A stretch of 64,000 nucleotides of DNA from Oegoconia quadripuncta (lineage: Eukaryota > Arthropoda > Insecta > Lepidoptera > Autostichidae): assembly GCA_949316235.1 (NCBI GenBank), contig OX438747.1, positions 30,880,618 through 30,944,617 on the forward strand, given 5' to 3'. Made by a program: the position numbers and the translations under genes. The notes beneath the pieces are model-generated. The model was not told where the DNA came from, did no database searches, and saw only the letters and a program-made list of their open reading frames with translations. Below, piece by piece: positions 8,838 to 55,081 of this stretch (position 1 is the stretch's first letter; every line of letters begins with the position of its first letter).

Positions 8838-11800
8838 TTAACATTCGTCAGTAGATGTGCTCGAATGTGACGAATGCGAACTGGACGATGATTGTGATGC
8901 CGCAGATTGTGAAGATGACGATGATGAAGACGATTTGCTAACGCTACCGTCGGCATTCTTTGTTACGTGTTCACTAGATTCGTGACTGGAGTCGTGGCTC
9001 GCTCCACTCTGTTGTTCGCAGGAGTCACTACTTTCAGTTTTAGTCGTAGATTTCTTCCCATTTTTTATACTGGTCTGGGAACTGCTGGAGTCGTTTGAGT
9101 TTTTGCTACTTGCTTGTTGTCTATCGCTACTGGCACTGGAACTGTCATGGGAGCTGGAAGATGATCCGTCGCTGTTCTTTCTGGAGCTGTTACTTTCCCG
9201 TTGTTTGTTGCTATTAGATTGGCTGTTACTACTACTAGAGCCAGAATTTTGACTGCTACTTGAAGAATTTCCATTGCTGTCGTGTGAACTCTTCGAGTTC
9301 TTCGATTGGTTACTGGATTGATTTTTACTGGCTGATTGGTTACTGGAGCTTGATTGGCTGCTAGAACTGGATTGTGAATCATCATCATCACAACCATCAT
9401 GTTTACCGCCTCGTGATCCATGGCCGTGTCCATTGTTGGATTGATTACTATGGGATGATTGGTTGCTGGAGGTCGATTGGTTGCCACTACCTGATTGGTT
9501 GTGTGAGCTGGATTGACTACTAGAGCTTGACTGGTTAGATTCATCGTCATCATCACATCCATCATGTTTACCGCCTCTTGATCCATGTCCATGACCGCGT
9601 CCATTTTGAGATTGGTTACTATGGGATGATTGGTTACTGGAGCTCGATTGGTTGCCGCTACCTGTTTGGTTGCTTGAGCTGGATTGACTACTAGAGCTTG
9701 ACTGGTTAGAGTGTGAATCGTCATCATCACATCCACCGTGATTACCGCCCTTTCCATGCCCACGTCCATGATGAGAATCTGAATCATCATCACATTCATC
9801 ATCTTTTCCGCCCCTAGATCCACCCCTGTGTCCATGTCCTGATTGGTTACTACTAGAAGATTGGTTACTTGAACTAGATTGGTTGCCGCTACCTGATTGG
9901 CTGCTTGAGCTCGATTGGGTGCTAGAGCTTGACTGGTTAGATGAATCGTCATCATCACATCTATCGTGTTTACCGCCCCTTCCATGACCGCGTCCATGAC
10001 CACGTCCATGATGAGAATCTGAATCATCATCACAGTCATCATCTTTTCCGTCCCTAGATCCACCCTTGTGTCCATGTCCTGATTGGTTACTACTAGAAGA
10101 TTGGTTACTTGAACTAGATTGGTTGCCGCTACCTGATTGACTGCTTGAGCTCGATTGGGTGCTAGAGCTTGACTGGTTAGATGAATCGTCATCATCACAT
10201 CTATCGTGTTTACCGCCCTTTCCATGACCGCGTCCATGTCCACGTCCATGACCACGTCCATGATGAGAATCATCATCATCATCACAGTCATCATCTTTTC
10301 CGCCCCTAGATCCACCCCTGTGGCCATGTCCTGATTGGTTACTACTAGAAGATTGGTTACTTGAACTAGATTGGTTACCGCTACCTGATTGACTGCTTGA
10401 GCTCGATTGGGTGCTAGAGCTTGACTGGTTAGATGAATCGTCATCATCACATTTATCGTGTTTACCGCCCCTTCCATGACCTTGTCCATGACCACGTCCA
10501 TGGTGAGAATCTGAATCATCATCACAGTCATCATCTTTTCCGCCCCTAGATCCACCCCTGTGTCCATGTCCTGATTGGTTACTACTAGAAGATTGGTTAC
10601 TTGAACTAGATTGGTTACCGCTACCTGATTGACTGCTTGAGCTCGATTGGGTGCTAGAGCTTGACTGGTTAGATGAATCGTCATCATCACATCTATCGTG
10701 TTTACCGCCCCTTCCATGACCGCGTCCATGTCCACGTCCATGACCACGTCCATGATGAGAATCATCATCATCATCACAGTCATCATCTTTACCACCTCTA
10801 GATCCACCTTTGTGTCCATGTCCTGATTGGTTACTATTAGACGATTGGTTGTTGGAGCTTGATTGATTGCTAGAGCTTGATTGGTTGCTGGAGCTCGATT
10901 GGTTGCTAGAGCTTGATTGACTGCTGGAGCTCGATTGGTTGCTAGTACCAACATCATCATTGCAATCGTTATCATCGTCTGATTCATCATTGCAATCATC
11001 ATCATTATTTGACTCATCATTGCAGTTATCACTATTGCTTGATTGATTGCTACTGCTTGATTGGCTGTTGGAGCTCGACTGGTTCCCACTGCCTGATTGG
11101 TTGCTAGAACTTGATTGATTATTGGTGGTGGACTGGTTGCCGCTACCAGATTGATTGCTAGAACTCGATTGGTTGCTGGAGCTTGATTGGTTGCTTGTGC
11201 CTACTTCATTATCGCAATCATTATCATCGTCTGATTCATCATTGCAGTCATCATCATTATAGGTGTCATCGTTGCAGTTATCAGATCCGTCTGATTGATT
11301 GCTAGAACTTGATTGGTTGCTAGAACTAGACTGGTTGCCGCTACCAGATTGGTTGATAGAGCTAGATTGGTTGCTAGAGCTCGACTGGTTGCCACTACCA
11401 GATTGGTTGCTGGAGGTTGCTTGGTTGCTGGAGCTCGATTGATTGCCGCTGCCAGATTGATTGCTAGAGCTCGATTGGTTGCTGGAAGTCGACTGATTGC
11501 CGCTACCAGATTGATTACTAGAGGTTGCTTGGTTGCTGGAGCTCGATTGATTGCCGCTGCCAGATTGATTGCTAGAGCTCGATTGGTTGCTGGAAGTCGA
11601 CTGATTGCCGCTACCAGATTGATTACTAGAGGTTGATTGGTTACTGGAGCTCGATTGGTTACTTGTCCCTGCGTCATCATTGCAATCATTGTCATCTGAT
11701 TCATCATCATTATTTGAGTCATCATTGCAGTCATCATTATTGTCTGATTGGTTGCTAGAACTTACTTGGTTGCTGGAGCTTGACTGATTGCCGCTGCCAG

Positions 11801-13297
11801 ATTGGTTGCTAGAGCTTACTTGGTTGCTGGAGCTAGACTGGTTGCCGCTACCAGATTGGTTGCTAGTGCTTGCTTGGTTGCTTGAGCTTGACTGATTACC
11901 GCTACCAGATTGGTTGCTAGAGGTTGCTTGGTTGCTGGAGCTAGACTGGTTGCCGCTACCAGATTGGTTGCTCGAGCTTGATTGGCTGCTGGAGCTCGAT
12001 TGGGTACTTGTGCCTACGTCATCATTGCAATCATTGTCCTCTGATTCGTCATCATTGCAGTCATCATTATTGTCTGATTGGTTACTAGAGCTTGATTGGT
12101 TGCTGGAACTCGACTGGTTGCCGCTACCAGATTGGTTGCTAGAGCTTGCTTGGTTGCTGGAGCTAGACTGGTTGCCGCTACCAGATTGGTTGCTAGTGCT
12201 TGCTTGGTTGCTTGAGCTTGACTGATTGCCGCTACCAGATTGGTTGCTAGAGCTTGCTTGGTTACTGGAGCTTGATTGATTGCCGCTACCAGATTGGTTG
12301 CTAGAGCTTGCTTGGTTGCTGGAGCTAGACTGGTTGCCGCTACCAGATTGGTTGCTACTGCTTGCTTGGTTGCTTGAGCTTGACTGATTGTCGCTACCAG
12401 ATTGGTTGCTAGAGGTTGCTTGGTTGTTGGAGCTAGACTGGTTGCCGCTGCCAGATTGGTTGCTCGAGCTTGATTGGTTGCTGGAAGTCGACTGATTGCC
12501 GCTACCAGATTGATTACTAGAGGTTGATTGGTTACTGGAGCTCGATTGGTTACTTGTCCCTGCGTCATCATTGCAATCATTGTCATCTGATTCATCATCA
12601 TTATTTGAGTCATCATTGCAGTCATCATTATTGTCTGATTGGTTGCTAGAGCTTGATTGGTTGCTGGAACTTGATTGGTTGCTAGAACTCGACTGGTTGC
12701 CGCTACCAGATTGGTTGCTAGAGGTTGCTTGGTTGCTGGAGCTTGACTGATTGCCGGTACCAGATTGGTTGCTAGAGCTTGCTTGGTTGCTGGAGCTTGA
12801 CTGATTGCCGCTACCAGATTGGTTGCTAGAGCTTGCTTGGTTGCTGGAGCTTGACTGATTGCCACTACCAGATTGGTTGCTAGAGGTTGCTTGGTTGCTG
12901 GAGCTAGACTGGTTGCCGCTACCAGATTGGTTTTTAGAGCTTGCTTGGTTGCTGGAGCTTGACTGATTTCCGCTACCAGATTGGTTGCTAGAGCTTGCTT
13001 GGTTGCTAGAGCTAGACTGATTGCCGCTACCAGATTGGTTGCTAGAGGTTGCTTGGTTGCTGGAGCTAGACTGGTTGCCGCTACCAGATTGGTTGTTAGA
13101 GCTTGCTTGGTTGCTGGAGCTTGACTGATTGCCGCTACCAGACTGGTTGCTAGAGCTTGCTTGGTTGCTGGAGCTAGACTGGTTGCCGCTGCCGGATTGA
13201 TTGTTAGAGGTTGATTGGTTGCTGGAGCTAGACTGGTTGCCGCATCCATCATCGTCGTCATCAGACGAGCAATCATCATTATCGTCATCATCACAAT
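8838..13297 (-). CDS. Giant repetitive exon of the silk-like gene (1,485 codons plus stop)
   Basis: Read codon by codon, this frame has no stop until TAA at 8840-8838 and no methionine. By my reading it also lacks Leu, Phe, Trp and Pro. It opens with an acidic Cys block (DCDDDDNDDC). From 13250 to about 11040 come hexapeptides in threes, typically NQSGSG-NQSSSS-NQASSS (54 nt), interrupted by Asp/Asn/Cys spacers near 12650-12555, 12075-12010, 11745-11665, 11290-11210 and 11035-10950. From about 10850 to 9370 there are roughly six units of 240-258 nt. Each combines GHGH, GGSRGGK, DDDCDDD, SHHGRGHG, KHDRCDDDD and the NQ-Ser hexapeptides. The C-terminus is Ser-rich with QSAASQSSS and ends S-T-D-E-C. 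I count 29 Cys, nearly all within acidic blocks, which suggests regularly spaced cross-links. The His/Asp density suggests metal or calcium binding (inference). Confidence 0.85.
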
Positions 13298-16200
13298 CTG
13301 TAAATAATAATTTTAGTATAAGAATTTAGTTTGTTACAGTTAAATGATTTATTTAATTTAACACTTTATTGCATATAAACATACATTGAACAATGGGATA
13401 GAAATTACATATACATATACAATTGGATGTCTATTGAAACTTTTTTGTTTCACATTATAATTTTAAATTCACCAATAAAAATATATTAGAAAAATCGATT
13501 CGAATCTCAAACAATAACATAGCTGACAATTTGTTTATCAAAGTAGGTAACAGTTTTTCGAAATACGATTTACGGAATTTACGTTAGGTAAACACGTCCA
13601 CCGACAAGTGCACAACTCTTAAATTAAAGAGCGATGTCCTTTTTACCATGAACTATATTTCAAATCGATGCCATTCGAGCGAAAGATGCTTTTTTTGTTA
13701 TTACAACAGCGTGTAGGGAAAATTAAGCGTTACAGAATTTACTCAAGCTTTGCAAAAGCTTGAGGACAGTTAAAAAGGGGCAGGTTTATGCCACTTGTAT
13801 TTCGGCATCGATTTCTAACTATGCTCAAGCGCAAATCTACGCTTGAGTGACATTCTGAAATACTGGCCTTAGAGTTAGACAAATATGGATTTTATATAGA
13901 CGTACAGCAAGCATGCATACAAGGAAGCAACCATCTACTTCTAGCCCTTCAGCTACCCTATACTCATAATCATAATTCTTTATTTCCATAAACTTCAATT
14001 AGAGCACTTGGACACGTCAACATACATAAATAGTATAATTCATGACAATTATATAAGGTAGCTATTTAAAAATAAACGAAGTTAAGTTGCTGCAAAGGGG
14101 CATTGTCAATTATCTCATAAGCCTTACTACTGTCGAGAGGCATTGTCAAGTAAATACAATAAAATAATCAAATAACACAATAAATAGCTGCTGTATAGAG
14201 GCATTGTCAAGTATAGAGGCTATCGCGAAACCTCGCCAATCGCGGTTCAGGATACTGGTCCTTACTAATCGTGGGCTAGCGTAGCCCCCGATTTACAGAA
14301 AACACTCTATAGGGGTTTGAGATAGGACAGATAAGACCGAGAAGAAAAGATGCCCCGAGTCGGTTCCGTGCACGGAGCAACAAGTGACCGTTAATCTTCC
14401 TATTATCTTTTTTTTTATGTACGTAGGTGGGTTCGTACTTTACCTCAATCACACCTGATGTTACACACACCACAACATTGTCAGATTGGCAGATTTAGAT
14501 AAGATGGTGGTAGCTAACCAGGCGGACATTTAAAATGCCCTACCACCAACCAAACCATTCCCTTTCATCTTACACAGCAACAGTAACCTTAAACATTTCT
14601 CGCTGCAGGGGCAGGTCACTTTTCACTAGGTAAAATCTTACCTGATATGACAGTGATAGATGAAGACCCCGACTGCTCCGCTGCTGCTGCTTGAGAAGCA
14701 CTAGAAGTAGACCACTGCTTTTCGTTCCCGCAGTCATCTACTTCGCTGTACGACTGCGCAGCTTGCGCAGACTCCGCTGCCGCTGCAGAGGACGACTCCT
14801 CGCTCTGGATGACGGTGACGCCATCACTCGTTGTCGAAGAGGATGATGACGATTTGGATGACGATGAGGCTGACTGTTGCGAGGATGACGACGAACTCTT
14901 AGTCACTGTTTTGGGATCTGAAATTGTTCAATTAGTCATTATGAAACTAAGGCATTTAAATGTACAAATTATGTCGGGCCGCACCTGAATGGGACGGGCC
15001 GCATCGTAGTACATTAGGGCTTGCCGGATCGCAACGCTGTGCATTATCGTATTTTTATGTTTTTTATGCGCAATGCACAAAACAAAAATATCCTAGGTTT
15101 GAATCCAGGGTATGCTCTAAATGTATACCAAATTTCATCCATGAATAAATAAACATCCGAAGTTTCGCATTTATAATATTAGTTGGATGAAATCTTTAAT
15201 TTTTGTTGCTAAAATACAGAGTAGCACATGATTTTTTTATGGTGGAGTACAATTTGTATAAAAACATGTGTTTTACAATTTATTTATTTGTTATGCACCA
15301 CGGGTTAGCACTTGACCTCTAAAAAATCTGATGTTAAAATAAAGAAGAGGCGGAAGATGGAAGCGAACTGACTCGGAAAATCCATATTTATTTGGAGGAC
15401 TGGCTATCTTATATCTGACAACCGGACCACAACAAGCTATTAACATTTCTGTTGGTGGCAGACTTAAATAAGATGGTGGTAGCTAGCGTCAGGCGGACGA
15501 ATTGAACCCCCGCTCTCCGATTCGTAAACCTGTGTTGTTTACATTGAACCAGGGTGCGAACCAATCCATTTGGTGACCCTTATTGTCTAAATTCTATAGA
15601 CACAAACTCCATCGCCAATTGTCAAATTCAACCAATAGGCCTTAGCCTTAATAATAAATATAAATAAATAAATATCTATGAACATACACACAGCGCCATC
15701 TAGTTCCACACTAAGCAACTAGGCTTGTATTATAGATACCAGATGGTTGATAAACTACACAAATACATTTTTTTTGTAAATAAATATATGTAAATGAATA
15801 ACATCCATAACTCGGGAACACATTCATCATACAAACATGTGCTAGCGGGATTCGAACCCGCGACCTTTTGTTATAGCAACAGAGGTTCTAACCACTACAC
15901 CAAACAGGTCGTCATTAATATAGGTAGGTAACAATGATGGTCAAATTCGATCAATAAAGCTTCAAATATCAATTCATTTCAAGAAAATGGCATTGAAATC
16001 AGATAATTGCATGCCCAGAAATCTTCCATGCAATAACTCGACTATGCGATCCTCTTCGGCCCGGCACATTCTGCGATAGCTCATATATATAAAATATGGA
16101 AGCGGATTTGAACGGACTTTTGGGTTGGTGACGTAAATAGAATAATTTATATCGACAAAATTAAAAAATCCATTTGTCCTGCGACCTGTTTGGACGAAAT

Positions 16201-35326: not shown

Positions 35327-36388
35327 ATGGTATATCAAGTAAGTTTTGATCTAATGGAAGCATATTTTTTGAACGATAAAGATATCTCTAGAAGTTTGCG
35401 GTGGTATGGCGTAAAATATCCTGATAGACAAATACCGTCTCGTAAAGTTTTGAAAAGGCTTGTGAACAATTTGAAAACTCTGGGACGTTTCGATAAACGC
35501 CCAAGAGAACCACAGCAAGAAAACCATACGATCAACGACGAAGAACTTGGTATTTTAATTTACTTTTCGGCTTTTCCGAAAGCATCGGTGAGAGAAGGAG
35601 AACATGAAATTGGAGTTTCAAAAAGTAAAATACACCGTGTATTAAAAAAACACGGTTTTAAGAGTTATGTTGAAGGACGATTGGTTCAAAAATTACTTCC
35701 GGGCGATACAGAAAGGAGAAAAAATTTCTGTCTTGATATCCAGGCACGATTGCTCGAAGATCCAAATTTTTTGGATAATATTATTTGGACAGACGAATCT
35801 AACTTTAGCAATAACGGTATGTATAACCGCAACAATAATCGTATTTGGTCTAAAGAAAATCCCCTACGAGTGACTGAAACTAATAACCAAGTGCGTTTTT
35901 CACTCAACTGTTGGTGCGGACTTTTAAAAAACCGGGTTTTCTTAATCCATTTTTACCAAGGAACCTTGAACACAGAAAAGTATTTAGGAATACTTCAAAT
36001 TTTAAGGGATAAGATAAGAAACCATTCCGCGGCGGAGCAAGAAAACTTAATTTTCCAACAAGATGGAGCTCCGGCTCATAATAGTCGGAGAGCAGCAGAT
36101 TTTCTAAATGAATGTTTTCCTACATGGATTGGTACAAATGGACCGATTAGATGGCCGGCCAGATCCCCGGACCTCACACCATTAGATTTCTTCTTTTGGG
36201 GATACGTGAAAGATATGCTATACAAAAAGCGATACGAGAACGTAGGCGAGTTGCAAACAGAATTGTGCCATATCACATCGAGTGTTCACCATAAAATGAT
36301 TAGAAAATCAACAGGCAGCGGGCTCATTAAAAGATTGGCGATTTGCGTAAGACAAGAGGGATCACATTTTGAGCATTTAATTAATTAA
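35327..36388 (+). CDS. Mariner/Tc1-like transposase, 353 aa, intact
   Basis: Catalyses cut-and-paste movement of the surrounding element. The N-terminus has the usual paired helix-turn-helix layout: 'YFLNDKDISRSLRWYGVKYP' and 'DRQIPSRKVLKRLVNNLK', then 'VSKSKIHRVLKKHGFK' near residues 96-111. The catalytic triad is visible: Asp in 'IIWTDESNFS', Asp in 'IFQQDGAPAH', and the final Asp in 'SPDLTPLDFFFWG'. The last two are 41 residues apart if the PLD aspartate is used, unlike classical mariner DD34D and close to the DD41D group. The length is normal (about 340-360). The start at 35327 fits the family; two earlier ATGs (near 35136 and 35233) open short frames. No stop or frameshift is present, so a recent, possibly active copy is plausible. 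Confidence 0.95.
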   Translation: MVYQVSFDLMEAYFLNDKDISRSLRWYGVKYPDRQIPSRKVLKRLVNNLKTLGRFDKRPREPQQENHTINDEELGILIYFSAFPKASVREGEHEIGVSKSKIHRVLKKHGFKSYVEGRLVQKLLPGDTERRKNFCLDIQARLLEDPNFLDNIIWTDESNFSNNGMYNRNNNRIWSKENPLRVTETNNQVRFSLNCWCGLLKNRVFLIHFYQGTLNTEKYLGILQILRDKIRNHSAAEQENLIFQQDGAPAHNSRRAADFLNECFPTWIGTNGPIRWPARSPDLTPLDFFFWGYVKDMLYKKRYENVGELQTELCHITSSVHHKMIRKSTGSGLIKRLAICVRQEGSHFEHLIN

Positions 36389-37844: not shown

Positions 37845-37943
37845 TTAACTCTGTAGACTCTGTTCGCTCTTCAGCTCCAAAGCCCAAACGTGCTGAGGCC
37901 ACCCAGTACGGCCTTTGCCGCGTTTCTCCACGGACGAGTTGGC
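37845..37943 (-). CDS. Hand: Hand coding exon 6 (C-terminus, stop)
   Basis: Acceptor TTGTTCCCAG. It encodes A-N-S-S-V-E-K-R then [17 protein letters not shown] and SEQSLQS, stop TAA at 37847-37845. The [14 protein letters not shown] block is diagnostic for HAND proteins. It lies 8.85 kb from exon 5. Confidence 0.97.
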   Translation of the reverse strand, partial: ANSSVEKRGKGRTGWPQHVWALELKSEQSLQS

Positions 37944-43900: not shown

Positions 43901-46900
43901 CAAAAGTTGACGCATCCATACAGCTTAGTAAGCTATATGGAAAACGGTAATATGTGTTTGTGTGTGTGTGTCCAGTCTTTGTCTGATGGATGTATCTCAG
44001 GAATGCGTGATCTGATTTGAGTCCGTTTTTTTTATATTAGAGACTAAACGAGAGGTCATCTTAGCCATGTTTGAGATAAATTAGGGCGTAAGATATTTAG
44101 ATTTGGTAGATTTCGCAATGTATAGATGGATGCGAGCAGCGCACGACGTTGTGAAGATCTTTAGGGAGACCTTTGTCCAGCGGTGGACGTCTTTCGGCTG
44201 ATATGATGATGATAGATATAATTTGGAGCAAATTAATCGTTAGCGTTTCTCTAGGGATAGTCTGTGTACATAAAACGCTTTTCTCTTGTCTTTTAACCTT
44301 ACAATAGGTATTTGCTAATCTAATAAATCTAGAACCACATGGCCCCTATAATACGTTGTCTGGCCACGATGTCGTGGCGGATGAGTTGCACTGGGTATAG
44401 TTATCTACGGTACCTAATTATAGATTTCTAAATGAAATTGGTTGATATTTAAAGACTATTACAATTAGACATGAAGACGTCAATGGCTTACAGATGCCCC
44501 AAAATTTAGAAAATGTTAAAGCATGTTTTTGATCCAAACAAAGGCGCAATTAAGGTAGATTGATAAAACTTGTTCTTAAAAATCACGAAAGCGGAAACAT
44601 AGTATATAATTTTATCAATCTGTTTACTTTGTGTATTTAGTAAACGACACATTGTTTGACAGGATTAAATTGCAGGTTAGATAAACGGTAAAAACACTCA
44701 TATAACTTATGCCTTAGCCTTATGGTACAGTTGACGTCAAGATGACCATGAAACTATCAGCGTAAGTTGGCCGCGTGACGCTAATGTGAACACAGCTAAT
44801 ACTGGAAGTGTTACATGTCTTACATCAAAGTATCTAATAGGCATAATGTACTTGGAACAATAAATACCATCGTGGAAAACGAATATTGAAGAAAGGAGAA
44901 AAACTGGCGGCAAGATACGCTTCAACAATTTTCCACTTTCGAAAAGCGCCAAGTCACAGTAGCCAGATTATAATTGAATATGTACTTGTAATTGTTTTGA
45001 TACCGTTGAGAATATCAAGGTGTACATTTACTAATTTTGTTATTAACTAGTCTCTTCCTTCGAGTTTGTTTGTGTGGGCTTGAAATAAATCGGGCTCCAA
45101 CTCTGGATTCTTGTGAACGATTGACGCTACTCCTACGAGAAGTCGGTTTGGATTTCTTTTTCAGAAAGGGAAAATACGTTTAGACCTCGAAAAAACGCAT
45201 AATCGCGATTAACTTGAAGTTTTAAAGTGTTGTAAATGTAGTAACAATTGCTAAAAATTAAGCATTTGTAAGAAGCGCAAGTATGTTTTCTATCGTTCTA
45301 TCTCATCTACTCGTATCTCTATCGATTTCTATCAGTGAAAACCTCTAATTGGCTTTCAGTTTTTTAGTATAAGTGATAATTTGTATAAACAGCTGTTGGT
45401 TTTCCCGAGAAAATAAATAAAATATCTAAATATTTTTCCAAATAAGTTAAAGTTGAAAGATGTGTTTCTAAAAAAAAAAATATTAATTTGGAAACCAGGA
45501 AAATATGAAATTAAAAACCTTTCTCAACCAGACTGAGTAAGTCGAGTTTGTACTTAGTAGCTTTAGCAACTACAGCGCCGGCGCCAGAATGCACTTAGAG
45601 TTAGAGACAGTTTATCAAGCACATGTGCGCGGGCGCAGATAAGCGTTGTTCCCTCGTGAATCAGTGCTCGAGTGGGCCGATGCGTTGTAGTTGATGGCTC
45701 AATTATGAGAAATGCCAAGCTAAATTTTAGTCTGCGCGTAATTTCAATATGATCTCTTTGGATGAGCTTTGTAGGTATCTAACTAATATTATAAATTCGA
45801 AATTTTGGATGTTTTCTTGTCTATTTCTTTGGTGCTAAATCACTGCGAAACTGATGAACGGATTTGGATGAAATTTGGTATATAGGTAGAACATACCCTG
45901 AGTTAAAACATAGAATATATTTTATCCCGAAAAAGTGAGTATTTCCCGTGGGATAAACAAATTAAACATATCCGTGATGTAGTTATTCCAAATTTATATT
46001 TATATACCTATTTCCATTTGACTAACACCTTCCATCCCTTACATGTCAAAATTCAATAATGAGATGTACATTGTCAAAGTACTCGTTCAAACCATAAACA
46101 GGATTTTCATTTAGAAACCATTTGAACTTATTAGAACTAGGTCTGTCTAAGTACCTTGATGATACGAGGTAAGGGCGGAAAGCTAGTCTTCTATAAATAG
46201 AATAAAATCAAGAAAACATGAAAAATTTGCACATTCAAGATATCCGAAATAACTATAGGTACCTACATAGATAGATAAATAAATTGGCACACATACAAGA
46301 AACCAACAAACGTACAACACAATAGTAACAAACGGAAAGAAACATATACATGAAAACTATAACAATTAAATTATTTAAATATTCATTATACCGGATGAGT
46401 TTGTTTACCCTAAGGGTTGTAGTGAAGGGCTACAACTCAGCATGGGTTGTAGCCCTTCACTACAACGCTGGTTTTCAGTGGAGCCTCCAAATGACGCACG
46501 GACACTGGTCAACAAATGTACACACAAATAATAATTATATGATGAGTTATGACGACTGGTTGGCATAGTGGATAGTGACCCTGTCTGCGAGCCCAAAGGT
46601 TTTGGGTTCAAATCCTGCTAGGGGCAAATAGTCACAAGACTGTTCTCAATCTTGAGAATGGTTTATTAATACGGCCCTGAATGTGCGGGTAAGCTTTGCT
46701 TAGTTTGGGACTAGATAATAAGTTGGTGTGAGTGTCCGAAATATATTTGTTTGTTTATAAATTTAAAAAATATATACATGGACCTGTATCTACCTGAGAG
46801 TTATCATTCGTCCGTCTCCGAGGAGGCGTGTGGTGCAGCTCTGCCCTGAACCCCCCCGCCGGCTCCCCGTCAGTCTCCAGCACCTTCAGGAGGTAGGATA

Positions 46901-49900
46901 TGTAGGAGGTGGCCAGCCGGAGTGTTTTGATCTGGTGGTGGAAACGAAGTTAGTAAGAGATTAACTGGCGATGAAAGTAATATGGCTCTTGTCAGGAAAG
47001 TGTGGTTATACAGTCAGCTGTAGGTAGCTTATTACCCGACGCCCCAAAAAGGAGAGTAATGTTTTTCGGGTGTAGGTATATATGCAAAGTTGCAAAGTGA
47101 CGTTCGATGCGTCTTGATCCCTAGAGTGTCATAGATACATTTTTATCCGACTTCAAAAAGGAGGAGTTTCTCAATGACGACCGATTGGTGTAGTGGATAG
47201 TGGGTCACTATCCTATGAGTATCAGTGGGTCCTATCAACGGTTGCGGGTTCGAATCCCGCGAGGGGTAACTGTTTGTGTGATGAATACGAACATTTATTC
47301 CCGAGTCTTGGACGTTTATATAAATATTTATGTATGTTTATCCGTTATCTAGTATCCATAGCACAAGCTTTGCTTAGTTTGGGACTGGATGATTGGTGTA
47401 AGTGTCCGAAGTATTTTTTAATATTTATTATTACTATTATTATTATAATTCGTCCCAAATTAAAAGGTGCAACGTCTAGTGGCCTCATTAGATAAATTAA
47501 TAGATAAAAAAAAATTCGGCCGTTTGTATGTTTTTTTTAAGTATGTAAACTCGATATCGCCGAGATTTGGCGATTGATTCACATGGTTCTTTTTGTACAT
47601 GAAAGGGGATACCGTCAAGTTGGTCCCATTGTAATTTCAGCGCAATCGGTTCAGTAGTTTTTTTGTAATCCTTGGACATATACAGACATCGCCAACTAGT
47701 TCCACACTAAGCAACTAGGCTTGTGTTGTGGACACCAGATGGTTGATACACTATACAAATACATTTTTTTTTTGTAAATAAATACATATATAAATGAAAA
47801 ACATCCATAACTCGGGTACACATGTCCCTATTCATCATACAAACATATGCCCACACACACTCACACACACACACACACACACATACACAAACGCATATTC
47901 ATGGTAAACAGCAGAATAGCATTACATATTTAGACGATTGTGTAGTTTTTAGGGAAAATAAGAGTAGATTTCGTTTAATGTATTAATTTGGTTTTATTCT
48001 ATTATATGATAATTTTAACATTTTTTGTTTCTTCTGTTTCGTGTACACTTTATGTCTACCTTTTGTACCAAATTTCGCTCTCACGGGTTTGCTGGAAGAG
48101 ATCTCTTATAGAGATAAGTTCGCCCTTTGTATATTTTTCTTAAATCTTTGTTAATGTCCATTTCTTTGTGTTTGTGTACAATAAAGTGTTAAAATAAAAA
48201 AAAAAGATACAATTTGGGTTTGTATGTAAAAAGTGTAGAGAAGGTCGGTGTGATTATCAATAGATATGATAAATCGAAGATCATCAGGTAGTAGTAGCTC
48301 GGACATACCGACTGACAGATAAATACAATAAACTTTTTTATTTCCAGTAGATTTAAATTGGCATTCAACAAATGATATTTTGTATCTTACGTTGAAATAA
48401 ATGCTTGAAGTTTGAAGTTCGAGCTGGTAACTGCCCACCTAACCAGTAGGAGCGAGAAGGGTCGCCATCGCACAAAAATTATCAGAGAGATTGGGAAGCA
48501 CGCTAAAATACTAAAATTTGAAAAATAATATCTTTCTAACAAAAAAATAAAACCGACTTCACCGAAAAAAGCCACTATAAAGTAAAAAGTAATTTATATT
48601 GACTTGTTTGGTGTAGTGGTTAGAAATCTGACCACTATACCAAACGGTCGCGGGTTCGAATCCCACTAGGGGCATGAGTTTGTATGAATACGGACATGTG
48701 TACCCGAGTTATGGATGTTTTCATTTATAATATGTATTTATTTACAAAAAAAATGTATTTATGTAGTATATCAACCATCTGGTATCCATAACACAAGCCT
48801 ATAGTTGCTTAAAGTGGAACTAGATGGCATTGTGTGTACGTCCAAGGATATTTATTTATTTATTTATATTGAAATGCTCGTATCTGTCAATCAATTTTAT
48901 TATTTCCTATGTCCACTGTCGTAATTATTGTTACTTCTCCTATATGAAAAAATATCTTTCGAAGTCGGCGCCAATGTAACAGTGACGATAATGTACCTAG
49001 ATTGATTTACATTCAATTTTCTTATTTTAAATTCCCTCATTTTTGTATTACATTTTTTTTTCTTTTTTTTTTGCAGAACGGGTTAGCACTTGTCCTCAAT
49101 CACACCTGATGTTAAGTGAAGATGAGGCCGAAGGTAGTAGCCTACTGACACGGAAACCCCAACTTATTTGGGGGACTGGCTATCTTATCTCTGATTTGCT
49201 GTTAAACGCGTAGCTTGCACAGACTGCTTATATTCTACATTTGGTCTGGAACCCTAAATGTGCGGAGTCCGACACGCACTTGCCCGATTTTTTTCTGGTC
49301 AGTGACATGACTGTAATTAATGGGAAGACATCCGACTCGCCAATTGTACGAATGTTGTGATTAATTATACATATAGTATTGTCTTGGCCGATGGTCGTCT
49401 AACGTTTGGCCGAGACGTCATTAACAATGGGACAAAAACCCTTCGGCCGCGTACGAAACCGGAGGTTCGTAACCAATTTCGGTAGAAGAAAAATATCGAT
49501 TACATTTTCATATGTAATTTTGGGAATATTAAAATAGATCCTGCATGTTCAATATAACCACACTTTCCGGACAAGAACCTTGGACCAACCTTCGAGAGCT
49601 TGGTATCGGGCAGGACATTCGGTATACGGTCCCTGAGTTGTGAGAACGCAATGTTGATGCTCTGCGATCTCTTTCGCACCATCTGGTGATTGTATAAGGG
49701 TAAGTGAGACGGGAGTAATCACAATTTTTCGTTTTTGGTCACATGTTTTAATATAACTTCTAAGTAGGGTGACAACGCATATCTTTGTAATTGAGATTAA
49801 AAGTTATAGCATACAAGTGCGGATGCAGTTTTCAAGTCAGATGATCACATGTGTGCCAGCCGTCATACTAAGCAGATTTATACAAACATGAATTGTTGCT

Positions 49901-52900
49901 ATAAATGCCCCTTTAATCTAGCAAAATTAAAATGACTCCCATGACATCCTGGATCCGCACTTGATAGCATAGCGCTTAATTGGAAACTGAGCAGCAAAAA
50001 AATGTAACTTGTTGGCCGCCAATAGTAAGATGGTGACATAATACTATCCGTATTGTAATGAGGCGGTTTATTCCAAAGTATCCAATACGTTTTTGCTGGT
50101 CACCATCTTATCTAAGCTTACCGTCAAGAAGCATTGTTACTAATAACATTGTTGTATTCCAGCTATTTGCAATAAGATATAGTCAGGCCTACAAATAAGT
50201 TGGGGTAGGTTTGGCTACACCAGGGGGCGATTTTCTCAATGTATCTCACAATATCGATTCATAGACAAAGAAAGCTACTACGGTTTCAAAATACAAAACA
50301 GTACTTTTGAATCGAAATGTCAGAGTTCCTATGAAATATTTAGCGTGTGACGATATATCTATCCGAAAATCGCCCAAAGATGCGATTAGGGTAAAGCCGT
50401 TAAACATAAAAGATATCTTTATAAAACACAGCATGTATTACTTACCTTTGATAGCTTCGTGTCTGGTGGTACATTGGGTATACAGTCTCGCAAGTCGGAG
50501 AACGCAGTGTTGATGCTTTGCGTGCGCCGGCGTTCCTTCTTGTTGGCCGTACTGCGTCGCTTAACCACTCGGACGAGAGAGGGGGCGGGCCGCTCGTAGC
50601 GCAGGGGGAGGGACTGCATGTCGCATTCGAGAACTAGGCACAAATATACACAGGCTCGTTCCTAAGTAATTGTAAACCGAAATACCACAAAAACTAATAT
50701 TAAGTAATATGCTACAAACACAACAGTCCTGGGGATTAACATTGCTGTTTGCCGGCAGATTTAGATAAGATGGTGGTAGCTAGCCAGACGGACATTTAAA
50801 ATGCCCTACCACCAACCAAACCGAGTACTTAAACATGTACCCCGCTGGGGATCGAACCCGCGACCTCCGAATCGTAAACCCAATGTTGTTTTCCATGATG
50901 TCCATTTTGTAAACTGAGTGACGCAAAGAAAAAAACCAAAGATGGAAAAAACATATGGAACGTTTTCGAAAAACAAATGCATGAGTAAGCTGTATAAATT
51001 TGAAATTGGAATTCCTAACCAAAGACGAGATATTTGAGATCAAAGTGGCCAGTACGACAAAACGCCAATTTCATATGTTAGGACCTACTATTAAATCTTT
51101 TTGTTCTTCTAAAAGCTACCTTTTATATCGTACCAGTGATCCTATATAAATTTGGTTAACATCTGATGATGCACTCGGGAGATAATGGATCTTTACCGCA
51201 ATCGGTTATATTGTCAATTGTGATCGTTCAATTAAATCCATAAACTTTAGCTATCATCTACAATCAATCACGCATCAAGTCATACATACCTGCAGACTAC
51301 TCTGCGATAGCGTATGGCGCCGTTGTAATGGGTTCGCTGTATATATCTTAGTCTATTCATACCACGTACAGAAATATTAACATTCTTTGATCGATTTCAA
51401 TGTGTCCATCCACGCGACTAATAAGACGCGAAGGTTAACTTCAAAAATTTCTCGATTATTTGGCGAACAGCTCTACCTACATCTTCACCTTCAGGACGAA
51501 GTTGGGTTGTGGTTACAAAACGTTCGAGGTGAAGGTATATAGATAGATAGATAGATCGTTTATTTGTATCTCCAGTCACACACATACCATAAGTTCCAAA
51601 GCAATTGGATATATGAAGTTTTTCGTTCCCACGTCCGAACTTACCCTTACCAATCAAGAGCAGAGTGAATAGGCATTTACTGGGATCGCGTGCTTCATCT
51701 TCGACCACATCGTCACTTTCCATCAGGTGAGATTGTGGTCAAAAGCGAATCCAGTCAATCAAAAAAAAAACCACAGAATACATAATAGTTACCCTACGAG
51801 TATATCGAAATATCATACCTGTGTTTTGTGGGTAGGTGTGATGCATACTGTGGTGGTAGGTGTCGTAAGGCTCGTTGCCTGCAATCTGCATGTCCTCGTA
51901 CCCTGTAGGACATACATAAGCCAATATTAAGACCGTACTGTCTACAAACAGATTAGTCGAATAGGGGGCCAAAAGCGAGCCGTTTTGTAAAAACCTCCCG
52001 GCATGTTTAGTGTAAGTATATGGTGACAAGAGAATTAATTGAACTATTACCTGTTATATATTGTTAACATTGTGAATATAATTTTTTTGAAGAACATAAT
52101 TGAGGGAAAGATTGAAGGAAAGAGAGGAAGGGGAAGACTAGGCGTAATTACTTTGACCAAGTGAAAGAAAGGGCGTGTTCCCACTATGTCGTAACGATTA
52201 ATTTATCGTTGGTCGACTGTCGTCTCTAGCTGTACCCATTGGATCGCGACGACATTTTATCGTTTCACGGCAGTCGCTTTGTACACATCATAGCAAACTA
52301 CAAATCTACAGTCGCCTCTACTTTCAATTCTGAGTTCAATGGACGAAGACGAAATGGAAGGCGGGTGCGAGGGGGATGGGAAAACACGTGTAAACGACGA
52401 GACGATATTTTTATCTTGGCTACGATAGATTTGCCGTCACGATTTAGTCGTAACGATTTTTTATCGTTTTACTACTGTCGTGCTAGCCGTTCCCACTGTC
52501 ATGACAATTTGTCGTCACAGCAAAAAATGTCGTAGACGACAGTATATCGTGTCGTTCTATATGTGAACACCTCCATTTAAATATAATAAGCCACGACACT
52601 TAAAACTACATGATTAACTGTCGACACGACAAAGTGGGAACGCGCCTAAAAGGTGAATGTCGTGTCGTACCAAGAGGTTAACACGAGGGCGGAAAGTAGA
52701 GAGACGTGGTCATTACTGCACCGACAAGAGCATACCTCTTAAATTGAAGAAGAAGAACATTTTAAAAAGTAAATTTAAAAAAAATTTAAGACTCGACTGC
52801 ATTGAATAGAAAAAACAAGGCCAGAAATCTTGTAAATTTTGTTAGGAAATATTAAATATCTAACACAATGTTATATAGTTTCATGAACACACATACATAC

Positions 52901-55081
52901 AAATAATATGGCAGTCTGGCGGTACCCATGAACTCTTTCAAGCTTGAAGCTTAAGTCTTCCAAATAATTTCAAAATCATGTACAATCCTCACCATAACTC
53001 CTGCCGATGTAGTGGGTGGTGTCGTGGTAGACGTCCTGGGCGTCGAACTCGTGACCCTCAGTGGTGGCAGGCGACCAGTATATACCGCTGTCCAAAGGGC
53101 TACCTGTACAAAAGAAATATTCGTGTCATCGTCTTGGATCATGACAAAAAACAGGCAGGCTGGGGTCTCTAGCATGGACAGGCTCCAAAATAACAATAAT
53201 AAATTGATTGAGTGTCATCATCATCAGCTCGTAAACATCCCATTGCAGGGATATAGGCCTTCCTTCGTATTTGAGGGTAATGGATCATAGTCCACCACGC
53301 TGGCCCAATGCGGGTTGGGGACTTCACATGCCTTTGAATTTTTATTTCTCAGGCATGCAGGTTTCCGCACGATGTTTTCCTTCACCGTTTAAGAGAAGTC
53401 GAATAAATGCACACAAGTAATTAAATTAAATTTAAAAACTCATGGATGCCTGCCTGCCTGGGAATTGAACCCGGGCCTCCCAAAATTGGGAGACCGCGTC
53501 TTAACCGCTCAGCTACCGACGCTCGGTAGATTGGGTATCAACATGGACAAAACGAAAATTAAGGCGAATGTCCATGTCGTGCCTCCAGCAATATCAGTTG
53601 GGAAACGCATTCTCGAAGTTGTAACGAGTATGTCTATCCAGGACAAATGCAAATTATTTATTTTGCCATAATATAGGTACACAAGGGTGTTTTAATATTA
53701 AAAATAAGGCCCATTACATTCTGCCTTTTGAGCATGCAAAATTTAACGAATATTTAATTATATCTAATTATAATTACCTATTATTCATTAATTATACAAT
53801 TTTAAATAACCCAACTTGCAAGGAATGTTCAAAAATTGTCAACATTACAAAATTGACATTAATTTTGGGTTATTCTCTTCTTATGATTCTTATCTTCCGT
53901 ATAACCGCCTCCGTGGCTCAATGTAAATAACATTGGGTTTACGATTCGGAGGTCGCGGGTTCGATCCCCAGCGGGGTACATGTTTATGTACTCGGTTTGG
54001 TTGGTGGTAGGGCATTTGCCGCCAAGCAGCAATGTTAATAGCATTGTTGTGTTCCGGTTGTCAGAGATAAGATAGCCAGTCCCCCAAAATGTGTTGGGGT
54101 TTCCGGGTCAGTACGCTTCCACCTTCGACCTTATCTTCATTTAACATCAGGTGTGATTGAGGTCAAGTACCAACCCGTTATGCATAAAAAAAATAAAAAA
54201 AAATCTTCAAATGATTTTGTCAAAATTATAGAGAATTAGAAAGAATGTCAAAATCAATAAAAAGAAAGAACTCCGTGTAATCGGTCTAACTTCGAGAGAG
54301 AGGTCAATCGACGAATCAAACTCACATGGGTGAACACATTCGCGAAGCGCGCAACGTCTTCTTGTCCAAAATATCTCAGTGCTTGAAGACAAGTCTTTAA
54401 TCAATGTGTGTTACCAGTAATGGCTTATGACACTGAAGCGTGGTCTCACACTATGGGCCTCATAAGAAAACTCAATATCAATGAGCTACTGCGACTACGA
54501 GCGTTTTCTCAGGAATGAAGAAATCCATAATCTGACGAAGGTCACTGTATAGCCCAGGGGATGCGTTTTTTTTTTATGCGCAACGGGTTGGTTCCTGACC
54601 TCAATCACACCTGATGTTAAGTGAAGATGAGGTCGAAGGTGGAAGCGTACTGCCCCGGAAACCCAAATATTTGGGGAACTGGCTATATTATCTCTGACAA
54701 CCGGAACAAAACAATGCTATTAACAATGGTGTTTGGCGGCAGATTTAGATAAGATGGTAGATAGCCAGGCGGATATTTAAAATGCCCTACCACCAACCAA
54801 ACCGATTACTAAATATGTACCCCGCTGGGGATTAAACCCGGTGGTGGTAATTAAAGCTAATTAGGTATTATTTATAATTAGCTTTAAGGCTTCTCCAAAA
54901 GTGGTCCAAAGTTCCTTTACGTAATTTGCAGTGAGCATAATGAAAGATATTCTCCAGGCCTTGGATTCTGTCATGCCATCTCTTACCAATCTGCTGCGGC
55001 TGACAGTAGAACGGAGGCTCGTAGCGGTCGAACCCCTCGTCTGAGGGGGACATGCTGCCGTAACTAGACATCGGACTGCAC
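37845..55081 (-). CDS. Hand: Hand, basic helix-loop-helix transcription factor
   Basis: Coding join, minus strand: 55081-54987, 53103-52993, 51902-51819, 50633-50446, 46931-46794, 37943-37845. All junction phases agree (1, 1, 1, 0, 0) and all introns are GT-AG. From the Met at 55071 the protein is 234 aa, normal for HAND. It binds E-boxes as a dimer with a class I bHLH partner and, in insects, acts in heart, lymph gland and visceral mesoderm development (family knowledge). The N-terminal 120 residues are Tyr/His/Asp-rich ('[20 protein letters not shown]', '[13 protein letters not shown]', '[14 protein letters not shown]'). The bHLH follows, then the C-terminal HAND motif [16 protein letters not shown]. 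Exon one can also be read 3 codons upstream of that Met to its acceptor, so an earlier coding exon or a 5' UTR exon beyond 55081 is possible. Confidence 0.96.
38339..38395 (+). repeat. SINE family A 3' end
   Basis: 'cacttaacatcaggtgtgat' to an A-rich end. Confidence 0.8.
38555..38668 (-). repeat. LINE 3' tail
   Basis: Same 3' tail as at 20095-20230 and 51630-51770: 'gtttgaccacaatctcacct', 'aaagcacgcgatctcagtag', preceded on the plus strand by a T run. Confidence 0.7.
38848..39658. mobile_element. MITE family H, longest copy (~810 bp)
   Basis: Left end 'ataccggatgagttttttac', right end 'gtaaaaaaactcatccgata'; the inverted similarity extends about 95 bp ('agggcatattaggtaagtg', 'aagttattggcataggtag'). 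No transposase frame. The interior is AT-rich with an (AT)n run near 39342-39358. Confidence 0.75.
39659..39828. other. Unassigned sequence
   Basis: Lies between the MITE and the tandem array; nothing recognised. Confidence 0.35.
39829..40163. repeat. 120-bp tandem repeat, about 2.8 copies
   Basis: The motif 'tgcctactgtgaactaccgc' starts at 39841, 39961 and 40081, exactly 120 bp apart. Copies one and two are almost identical; the third ends at 'acaacatgtaggt'. No long open frame is shared. Confidence 0.97.
40164..40483. other. Unassigned sequence
   Basis: No gene. 'gatagatagataaacg' near 40357 resembles the start of a retroelement tail also seen at 51538-51560 and 63085-63110. Confidence 0.35.
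40484..40757 (-). repeat. SINE family B, full length
   Basis: From 'atccataggcatacgcacag' to the head 'accactacaccaaacaggta', with an intact B box ('gggattcgaacccgcaacct' on the plus strand). Confidence 0.92.
40758..41619. other. Unassigned, likely mobile-element debris
   Basis: Repeat K end at 40905-40955 (minus). The complementary frames at 41005-41196 carry no recognisable domain. Nothing else identified. Confidence 0.35.
41620..41690 (+). repeat. SINE family A fragment
   Basis: 'atggttggtggtaggtaatt' to 'ttctgccgccaaacagca'. The 3' part of a SINE A reappears at 42045-42215. Confidence 0.75.
42045..42215 (+). repeat. SINE family A 3' fragment
   Basis: 'tagcattgttgtgttccggt' to 'gctgtgcactaaaaaaa', with a short expansion near 42115-42138. 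With 41620-41690 it may be one SINE split by about 355 bp. Confidence 0.8.
42216..42700. other. Unassigned sequence with a retroelement-tail trace
   Basis: Positions 42475-42600 ('atcaaacatggctaagaacc', 'gatgcgtccggacaaagact') resemble 43960-44100 in reverse orientation, a diverged tail pair. Confidence 0.4.
42756..43095. mobile_element. 340-bp hairpin MITE with 10-bp target duplication
   Basis: Ends GGGTGTACTACGCAATAGCG and (reversed) GGTGTACTACGCAATAGCG; the arms stay matched for more than 100 bp. The direct repeat TGTTAAGTTT flanks both ends (42746-42755 and 43096-43105). No coding capacity. A 9-10 bp duplication is typical of Mutator-like elements; superfamily not proven. Confidence 0.9.
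43385..43490 (-). repeat. Repeat L, related to the 59-kb tandem array
   Basis: The minus strand reads 'atttctattgaacgacagtg', 'acattctgcgacatgatagt', the same words as the 62-bp units at 59093-59465. Confidence 0.8.
43561..45780. other. Unassigned sequence inside Hand intron 5
   Basis: The 111-codon plus frame at 43555-43890 has no known domain and starts inside repeat sequence. 43950-44100 is a diverged tail and 44150-44215 a short dispersed repeat. Positions 45560-45720 are GC-richer and repeat-free by eye, a possible conserved noncoding block. Confidence 0.35.
45783..46185 (+). repeat. RTE-type retroelement tail
   Basis: 'taatattataaattcgaaat', 'actgatgaacggatttggat', 'agtgagtatttcccgtggga', 'gcggaaagctagtc', with unrelated sequence inserted at about 45990-46150. 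Confidence 0.7.
46416..46466. repeat. Perfect hairpin, 21-bp arms, 9-nt loop
   Basis: Arms 46416-46436 and 46446-46466 are exact inverted copies beginning GTTGTAGTGAAGGGC; loop TCAGCATGG. It sits just after a truncated MITE H start ('ataccggatgagtttgttta'). Confidence 0.95.
46553..46752 (+). repeat. SINE family C copy with a foreign 45-bp block
   Basis: Head 'actggttggcatagtggata' and B box 'gggttcaaatcctgc'. Then 46630-46669 matches 32587-32626 exactly, before the family C 3' half ('agctttgcttagtttgggac'). Confidence 0.8.
46794..46931 (-). CDS. Hand: Hand coding exon 5 (helix 2 of the bHLH)
   Basis: 138 nt, phase 0 at both ends, acceptor CCACCACCAG, donor GTAGAT. Encodes [19 protein letters not shown] then a Pro/Arg-rich linker ending in NDNSQ. 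'[12 protein letters not shown]' is the HAND helix 2. Confidence 0.97.
47178..47450 (+). repeat. SINE family C, full length
   Basis: Head 'gaccgattggtgtagtggat', B box 'gcgggttcgaatcccgcgag', 3' end 'ttggtgtaagtgtccgaagt'. The tRNA-like part has an extra ~25-bp duplication ('gtgggtcactatcct' / 'agtgggtcctatcaa'). Confidence 0.93.
47505..47690 (+). repeat. Repeat K copy
   Basis: 'ctcgatatcgccgagatttg', 'ataccgtcaagttggtccca', 'cggttcagtagtttttttgt'. It runs directly into a SINE B 3' half. Confidence 0.7.
47685..47850 (-). repeat. SINE family B 3' half
   Basis: 'ccaactagttccacactaag' to 'tccataactcgggtacacat'. The head is missing; a (CA)n run (47853-47890) follows. Confidence 0.85.
48170..48540 (+). 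repeat. Repeat I copy interrupted by repeat J
   Basis: Repeat I flanks (48200-48285 and 48430-48520) surround repeat J (48285-48425, reverse of 20960-21100). J therefore inserted into I, or both belong to one larger element. Confidence 0.65.
48598..48880 (+). repeat. SINE family B, full length
   Basis: Head 'gacttgtttggtgtagtggt', B box 'cgcgggttcgaatcccacta', 3' end 'aactagatggcattgtgtgt'. Confidence 0.93.
49065..49195 (-). repeat. SINE family A 3' fragment
   Basis: T run (A tail reversed), 'gaacgggttagcacttgtcc' to 'ggctatcttatctctgattt'. Confidence 0.85.
49196..49589. other. Hand intron 4, unassigned part
   Basis: Repeat-free by eye. It lies just 3' (in gene direction) of the second bHLH-half exon and could hold its donor-side regulatory sequence. 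Nothing specific recognised. Confidence 0.35.
49590..49682 (-). CDS. Second copy of the Hand bHLH first-half exon (alternative exon or decaying duplicate)
   Basis: 31 codons on the minus strand: [19 protein letters not shown], then [12 protein letters not shown], ending at AAG before GTTGGT. Over 29 aligned residues 23 are identical to exon 4. By hand count 13 of the codons for unchanged residues differ synonymously and only 6 codons change the amino acid, which points to past or present selection on the protein. It ends in phase 0, so it could splice to exon 5 like exon 4 does. The 5' side is different: AG|ATG with no good pyrimidine tract, and if joined to exon 3 the frame would be wrong. 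It could be an alternative first exon starting at this ATG, giving a protein without the Hand N-terminus. The DNA-contacting Glu of the basic region (ERRR in exon 4) is Val here (VRKR). The donor GTTGGT is weak. Expression is unproven. Confidence 0.6.
50446..50633 (-). CDS. Hand: Hand coding exon 4 (basic region, helix 1, loop)
   Basis: 188 nt, acceptor TTTGTGCCTAG, donor GTAAGT; phase 1 in, phase 0 out. Encodes [18 protein letters not shown], a linker, then the basic region [10 protein letters not shown] and helix 1/loop '[15 protein letters not shown]', 'PPDTKLSK'. ERRR carries the E-box-contacting Glu. The split exactly before helix 2 (SK|IK) is seen from the junction with exon 5. Confidence 0.97.
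50722..50895 (-). repeat. SINE family A 5' half
   Basis: 'attaacattgctgtttgccg' to 'aatcgtaaacccaatgttgt', with intact B box. The 3' half is missing. Confidence 0.88.
51240..51355 (-). repeat. Repeat E, copy 2
   Basis: Reverse complement of 37500-37615; 'ctgcagactactctgcgata' and 'gcgtatggcg' are shared. It lies in Hand intron 3. Confidence 0.75.
51600..51770 (+). repeat. LINE 3' tail with A run
   Basis: 'gggatcgcgtgcttcatctt', 'ccacatcgtcactttccatc', 'attgtggtcaaaagcgaatc', then about 10 A. Same tail as 20095-20230 (-) and 38555-38668 (-). Confidence 0.75.
51819..51902 (-). CDS. Hand: Hand coding exon 3
   Basis: 84 nt, acceptor ATGTCCTACAG, donor GTATGA, phase 1 at both ends. Encodes [15 protein letters not shown] and [12 protein letters not shown], part of the Tyr/His-rich N-terminal region. 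It could be skipped without a frameshift. Confidence 0.92.
52166..52650. mobile_element. MITE with GGCG(T/C)GTTCCCACT ends
   Basis: Left end 'ggcgtgttcccactatgtcg', right end 'cgacaaagtgggaacgcgcc', inverted with two mismatches over 20 bp. The interior is rich in 'gtcgt' and 'acgac' motifs on both sides. No clear target duplication. A 98-codon frame inside (52239-52535) is not a gene. Confidence 0.75.
52700..52757 (+). repeat. Short dispersed repeat F
   Basis: Nearly identical to 645-715: 'agagacgtggtcattactgc', 'gacaagagcatacctcttaa'. Confidence 0.6.
52993..53103 (-). CDS. Hand: Hand coding exon 2
   Basis: 111 nt, acceptor TTTTGTACAG, donor GTGAGG, phase 1 at both ends. Encodes [19 protein letters not shown] and [18 protein letters not shown] different frame is also open across it, but only this one joins exons 1 and 3 in phase. 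Confidence 0.93.
53215..53527 (-). repeat. SINE family G (tRNA-derived), full length
   Basis: The tRNA-like head lies at the right end on the minus strand: 'gggaattgaacccgggcctc' (B box) and 'taaccgctcagctaccgacg' (A box region), both as plus-strand text. The left end 'catcatcatcagctcgtaaa' is shared with 4462-4590. A classic lepidopteran SINE type. Confidence 0.85.
53528..53899. other. Unassigned, Hand intron 1
   Basis: AT-rich; no repeat or exon recognised. Confidence 0.35.
53900..54195 (+). repeat. SINE family A, full length
   Basis: Head 'accgcctccgtggctcaatg', B box 'gcgggttcgatccccagcgg', a short deletion in the middle, A-rich tail. Confidence 0.95.
54200..54562 (+). pseudogene. RTE-type LINE ORF2 fragment
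   Basis: The plus strand reads, with frame changes, '[17 protein letters not shown]', '[17 protein letters not shown]', '[14 protein letters not shown]' and '[13 protein letters not shown]', the C-terminal domain of RTE-type reverse transcriptases. A SINE tail cuts it at about 54567. Confidence 0.82.
54566..54845 (-). repeat. SINE family A, near full length
   Basis: Tail to 'accccgctggggattaaacc'; the last part of the tRNA-like head is missing. It sits only about 140 bp from Hand exon 1. Confidence 0.92.
54987..55081 (-). CDS. Hand: Hand coding exon 1 (first recognised)
   Basis: 95 nt between ATCTTTTCCAG and GTAAGAG. Reads [16 protein letters not shown] then [15 protein letters not shown], one base over. 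The Met at 55071 (context CCGATGT, weak) or the next Met (about 55053) may be the start. Because an acceptor precedes it, at least one upstream exon exists; whether it codes is unknown. Confidence 0.85.

Follow-up and report, generated by a model that had tools for sequence, protein, structure and literature searches.

Heart development is regulated by the conserved factor Hand; in the bHLH basic region, Glu is the residue that contacts the E-box. Exons 18A and 18B of E2A/TCF3 encode the bHLH and are duplicates, and Id and extramacrochaetae (emc) are separate genes without a basic region. With regard to vertebrate Hand2, PMC11634778 states that early heart formation needs the dimerisation domain and not DNA binding and that a DNA-binding-deficient form (RRR to EDE) retains early cardiac function; binding of Tcf3a/b by this EDE form is reported to be stronger than that of the wild-type protein.

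The DNA analysed here, referred to as the window, is a stretch of 64,000 nucleotides of the moth Oegoconia quadripuncta (Lepidoptera, Autostichidae; contig OX438747.1), and it holds a Hand gene in which intron 4 includes a block that repeats the 3' half of exon 4. The long protein that we propose for this gene would be, like Id and emc, an HLH protein that dimerises and contacts DNA poorly; unlike them, it would be a splice form of Hand's own gene with an intact upstream basic-helix 1 and some basic residues kept, and the presence of the exon 4 basic region in the long forms places them outside the Id/emc family, which is one of separate genes encoding an HLH without a basic region. The likeness to E2A/TCF3, as described for E12/E47 (exons 18A/18B) in PMC12585103, is that of a bHLH gene in which two alternatively spliced exons give rise to isoforms, but in E12/E47 one exon replaces the other, whereas in Hand a complete exon 4 is followed by its copy, and one protein has two basic-helix 1-loop halves and one helix 2. 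As in the tandem exon duplications with alternative splicing described in PMC9013439 and PMC9741552, a coding exon has been copied for alternative use; unlike the mutually exclusive choice treated there, about half an exon has been copied and both copies are used together. Finally, the proposed long form would dimerise without DNA binding like Hand2 EDE, which keeps part of Hand function according to PMC11634778, but EDE is not a natural isoform and carries engineered point changes in the sole basic region of the protein, whereas the block keeps other basic residues (RKR).

The best explanation as a whole is a cassette exon, 4b, together with a switch to a dimerising, DNA-binding-impaired Hand, and we would put the probability of this reading at roughly 70%. 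Regarding its parts, the block is very probably a conserved, optional cassette exon of Hand in Lepidoptera, a view that is based on observation of the frame, the past constraint, the conservation and the annotated isoform pairs of other species; the chances that inclusion of 4b is a switch to DNA-binding-impaired Hand appear to be evenly balanced.

Six coding exons were found from which Hand could be rebuilt as a protein of 234 aa (Table 1). Its best protein matches are lepidopteran entries for Hand (heart- and neural crest derivatives-expressed), and the terminal exon with the C-terminal Hand feature is present, which identifies the locus as a Hand bHLH gene.

Table 1. Coding exons of Hand and elements of the intron 4 block (positions in the window)
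Feature	Position	Strand	Remarks
Hand exon 1, coding part from ATG	54987..55071	minus	ends in phase 1
Hand exon 2	52993..53103	minus	ends in phase 1
Hand exon 3	51819..51902	minus	ends in phase 1; no in-frame join to the block
Hand exon 4	50446..50633	minus	enters in phase 1, ends in phase 0; encodes the basic region, helix 1 and the loop; 3' half duplicated
Acceptor region of the block, ending ...ttatacaatcaccag	49683..49722	minus	11/17 pyrimidines at -20..-4
Cassette exon '4b' (candidate)	49590..49682	minus	93 nt, phase 0-0; second basic-helix 1-loop half; homologous inserts in 22 lepidopteran Hand entries
Donor of the block, AAG/gttggt	49584..49589	minus	7/9 consensus letters
Hand exon 5	46794..46931	minus	phase 0 in and out; helix 2
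Hand terminal exon	37845..37943	minus	last coding exon

Several other features lie in the window. An intact transposase-like ORF of 353 aa on the plus strand (35327-36388) is located ca. 1.5 kb beyond the last Hand exon, and it reaches 26.3 bits for Pfam DDE_3 (below the cut-off of 28.6) and 23.8 bits for DUF4817 (above the cut-off of 22.6). On the minus strand, an open frame of 1495 codons (8838-13325) with Ser/Asn/Gln repeats (SSSNQSGSGNQ) and stretches rich in Asp/Cys and Gly/His is sericin- or silk-like by its look, and a Ser-rich ORF at 14616-14906 may belong to the same gene; a reverse-transcriptase fragment (2033-2557, minus strand) scores 25.1 bits for Pfam RVT_1, below the cut-off of 29.6. 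No tRNA genes were found in the window.

An earlier note on this DNA had described an open 93-nt block in Hand intron 4 that repeats part of exon 4 and has Val in place of the E-box-contacting Glu; a hand count over 29 codons had given 13 synonymous and 6 non-synonymous differences. Each of these points agrees with our results. The block reads on the minus strand from its ATG codon through all of its 93 nt with no stop and no frameshift, and the Glu of exon 4 is indeed Val in it. A tblastn comparison of the Hand protein with the window matched the block at E 5e-11, exon 4 and the block being the only low-E-value matches inside the window, and the 31 residues of the block alone match Pfam HLH (PF00010) with 29.7 bits (cut-off 20.7), so that a chance match is ruled out. 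In a search of the 623-Mb genome with the Hand protein, 23 candidates were scored and 14 matches were obtained; exon 4, exon 5 and the block account for three of them, and the other 11 lie elsewhere. The recount over the last 29 codons of exon 4 was identical to the hand count, and over all 31 codons the figures are 13 synonymous and 8 non-synonymous differences.

The NG86 estimates over 29 codons are dN 0.16 and dS 2.81, with dS near saturation. Simulations were run in which exon 4 accepted synonymous changes only and the block either drifted freely or was constrained part of the time (1500 runs each). Under free drift the block averaged ca. 13 changed residues, and six or fewer were reached in 0 of the 1500 runs, which rules out free drift of the block throughout, while constraint during 25, 50, 75 and 90% of the time rendered 0, 0.7, 9.4 and 86% of runs with at most six changes. 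The block has therefore been constrained at the protein level for most of its life, and the past protein-level constraint put forward in the earlier note is thus backed by the dN and dS values as well as by the simulations.

The block has the make-up of a symmetric exon, with a length divisible by 3, phase 0 on both sides and splice sites of its own. A phase-0 acceptor (cag/ATG) that had previously been missed directly abuts the start of the block, and exon 4, the block and exon 5 are therefore compatible in frame, rendering a protein of 265 aa when the block is included versus 234 aa when it is skipped. The pyrimidine content of this acceptor at -20..-4 can be compared with counts of 11, 10, 11 and 12 for the acceptors of exons 2 to 5; branch-like YTNAY sites are found at -26, -22 and -16, and an in-frame TGA is present at the upstream end of the acceptor region. 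The donor is of middling strength; the donors of exons 1 to 5 have 6, 7, 7, 9 and 7 consensus letters, and 292 of the 7512 GT sites in the window (3.9%) reach 7. Both splice sites of the block thus score no worse than those of other Hand exons. On the other hand, no acceptor giving an open frame from exons 1-3 into the block was found in a 180-nt scan about the start of the block, where stop-free acceptors offer phases 0 and 2 only, and splicing of exon 3 to the block is ruled out for lack of a phase-compatible acceptor in those 180 nt. The exon phases that had been read from the letters (phase 1 at the end of exon 3, phase 0 at the end of exon 4 and of the block), the fitness of the 3' side of the block to join exon 5, resulting from the phase that it shares with exon 4, and the want of a frame-compatible 5' link to exon 3 were all reproduced.

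Three protein searches, in which the best 120 entries of 90%-identity clusters were retained with a length floor, returned 181 proteins in all. The Hand search rendered lepidopteran isoforms of two lengths, with an insert located exactly at the exon 4/exon 5 junction. A junction-spanning pattern was matched by 176 of the 181 proteins, 151 without and 25 with an insert; 22 of these inserts are lepidopteran bHLH halves, one is a bHLH half of the beetle Leptinotarsa decemlineata, and two (P0075 from Eumeta, and P0160) consist of unrelated letters that look like mis-annotated intron. The 22 lepidopteran long forms are cluster representatives from 21 species (Danaus twice) among the matches listed, which we take to belong to Noctuidae, Erebidae, Gelechiidae, Papilionidae, Pyralidae, Crambidae, Sphingidae, Hesperiidae, Nymphalidae, Pieridae, Bombycidae, Plutellidae, Lycaenidae and Tortricidae, and in all 22 a complete exon 4 (AN-KERRR) precedes the insert. 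In 11 of the 12 lepidopteran long/short pairs of annotated proteins that were compared, the long protein without its insert is identical to the short one at every position, the exception being Plutella, whose pair differs also outside the insert. The label X1 alone is no guide to the long form, as the Zerene 'isoform X1' (P0058) has no insert.

Long Hand isoforms are already present in automated annotation, and most of them are computed; among the papers listed in an open-access library, none on a long Hand isoform was found, as judged by titles and abstract openings. The entry for the Bombyx long form (P0027) lists the source 'lgn' and 6 contigs, a hint of a transcript. Five lepidopteran-like entries from the 'lgn' source alone (P0014, P0024, P0069, P0071, P0072) are all short forms; the last is partial, and the other four are complete Hand proteins from contigs of ca. 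0.9-1.5 kb, into which an unspliced gene as large as that of the window would not fit and which are therefore probably cDNA. As for the beetle, Leptinotarsa Hand isoform X1 (P0076) has a bHLH-half insert of 34 aa at the same junction as in Lepidoptera, and isoform X2 (P0108) is identical to X1 except that the insert is missing.

Conservation was analysed in a set of 23 inserts, the 22 lepidopteran ones and that of the window. In pairwise comparison the inserts are on average 72% identical to one another; the exon 4 halves of these entries reach 95%, and an insert compared with its own exon 4 reaches 69%. The invariant residues are a single basic-region Arg and, in helix 1 and the loop, N, A, F, L, I, P, V, D, T, K and K, and the Cys of exon 4 is Arg or His in 22 of the 23 inserts. 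At the position of the E-box Glu, where the counts depend on gap placement, Glu is found in 4 inserts (Tuta, Colias, Plutella and Chilo, three of which keep the whole KERRR); 13 inserts have Val, 2 have Ala, and the remaining 4 have a different residue or a gap. Judged from these sequences, the helix core is therefore retained in the inserts and DNA contact appears to be mostly lost. Among the proteins submitted to Pfam HLH, the seven long forms (six from Lepidoptera and one from the beetle) have two recognised stretches each, and the three short forms have a single one. An AlphaFold2 model of the Pectinophora long form has three helices, at residues 122-144 (exon 4; pLDDT 74-85), 153-175 (the insert's own and the least confident, 55-76) and 184-206 (helix 2; 82-87), but it is weak overall (pTM 0.24, mean pLDDT 53.5) and does not decide which helix 1 is the partner of helix 2. 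A fold search of the PDB with this model gave no significant match, the best being the ID3 HLH at E 2.9.

From these data we infer how 4b would be spliced in O. quadripuncta, the geometry of the resulting dimer, the loss of DNA binding and the physiological use. Skipping of 4b would render the standard Hand protein, and its inclusion a protein with the order basic-helix 1-loop-basic'-helix 1'-loop'-helix 2. In this long form, helix 1 and the loop of the block would precede helix 2 in the normal register and most likely form the dimerisation domain with it. Since the basic region of the block has no E-box-reading Glu, and since 31 additional residues would separate the intact basic-helix 1 of exon 4 from helix 2, Hand would change on inclusion of 4b from a DNA-binding form to one that dimerises and is impaired in DNA binding. 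Such a form could sequester Daughterless-type partners in the manner of Id/emc, or, by analogy with vertebrate Hand2, it might carry a DNA-binding-independent part of Hand function. The dimerising, poorly DNA-binding product imagined in the earlier note is thus maintained as the likeliest function, but as a longer, full-length Hand and not as the N-terminus-less isoform to which it had been ascribed.

The main rival of this switch, which we consider unlikely, is a long isoform that still binds DNA, either with the basic-helix 1 of exon 4 pairing with helix 2 across a loop that is 31 residues longer or with both basic regions used together or alternately, so that site choice would be altered. 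It would explain the complete exon 4 of all the lepidopteran long forms and the inserts that keep the Glu, and it is also in line with Colias, in which the tail of exon 4 and the insert read KLSKKERRRT, a near-normal basic region, and with the best Pfam HLH stretch, which is the exon 4 half in three of the seven long forms (insert plus exon 5 in the other four). However, helix 1 and the loop of the insert stand in native register with helix 2 and have an invariant core, neither of which a mere long loop needs, the Glu is lost in 19 of 23 inserts, and the AlphaFold2 model, weak as it is, predicts a helix and not a loop for the insert.

The remaining readings are much less probable. The N-terminus-less Hand isoform, started by the block from an internal promoter or start codon, would suit the ATG of the block and the initial Met of 15 of the 22 lepidopteran inserts, and its product of ca. 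109 aa would fall just under the length floor of the protein searches, whose silence about it is no evidence. Nevertheless it is very unlikely: the insert follows a complete exon 4 in 22 of 22 lepidopteran forms, an acceptor adjoins the ATG, and 7 of the 22 inserts have no initial Met, hence a start codon there is not a general mechanism. Tandem homologous exons are typical of mutually exclusive pairs, but replacement of exon 4 by the block, as in E12/E47, is practically negligible, given that exons 1-3 end in phase 1, which the stop-free acceptors of the 180 nt scanned do not offer, that none of the 181 returned proteins has a VLPDTK-type block without the KERRR of exon 4, and that both copies occur together in 22 entries. 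It is also highly improbable that the insert, though conserved, is splicing noise without function, that it stems from faulty annotation, or that it is a relic whose function was recently lost in O. quadripuncta. The computed origin of many models and the intron-like inserts of P0075 (Eumeta) and P0160 would favour this, and the 9.4% of simulated runs that fit a neutral last quarter of the block's life leave some room for the recent release from constraint that had been offered as an alternative; selection has nonetheless acted on the protein sequence in the past, the splice sites are intact, and the frame and core residues are kept in 21 lepidopteran species.

Regarding its origin, the putative cassette exon 4b most probably arose when the 3' half of exon 4 was duplicated in tandem. 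Its position and orientation are as expected, the homologous copy (29 codons) lying in the adjacent intron, 763 nt downstream of exon 4 and in the same orientation, as in a tandem-duplicated coding exon. A tree of half domains (31 columns) was made from 21 inserts of this set of 23, without the second entries of Papilio and Danaus. In the best tree, one group (96/75) unites 16 inserts, that of the window among them, whereas the other five (Tuta, Colias, Plutella, Loxostege, Chilo) are placed among exon 4 halves. Neither a single clade of all lepidopteran inserts (p-AU 0.169) nor such a clade with the beetle insert added (p-AU 0.175) is rejected. The beetle insert groups with beetle exon 4 halves (support 49/85), and the INNAY that it has in common with them suggests, without firm support, an independent duplication in Leptinotarsa. 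Two types of lepidopteran insert can be distinguished, MVRKRS...VLPDTK and KERRR-like...DTKLSK, and two gelechiids differ in type. Five inserts (P0004, P0008, P0023, P0026, P0031) are nearer to exon 4 than they are to the common MVRKRS type, though their relatives have MVRKRS. The two types could result from gene conversion by exon 4, or from two coexisting copies of which one is annotated. A tblastn search of intron 4 in the window with 11 insert variants (10 of the 22 lepidopteran ones and that of the beetle; E up to 0.5) rendered no second copy, the matches being the block and one of 14 residues on the other strand at E 0.21.

It is conceivable, although we offer it as a rather doubtful proposal, that lepidopteran Hand has its own built-in antagonist, a splice switch placing a second, DNA-blind basic-helix 1-loop before the only helix 2, so that the activator would become a dimer trap or else a co-regulator working independently of DNA, and that the same happened independently in the leaf beetle, which would make this a recurrent route to an own Id. 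Tandem exon duplication would have been used here in a different way, half a domain being added instead of exons being swapped. Moreover, vertebrate Hand works with and without DNA binding, and if an insect order has split both modes into splice forms, DNA-independent Hand function would become testable by deletion of a single 93-nt exon.
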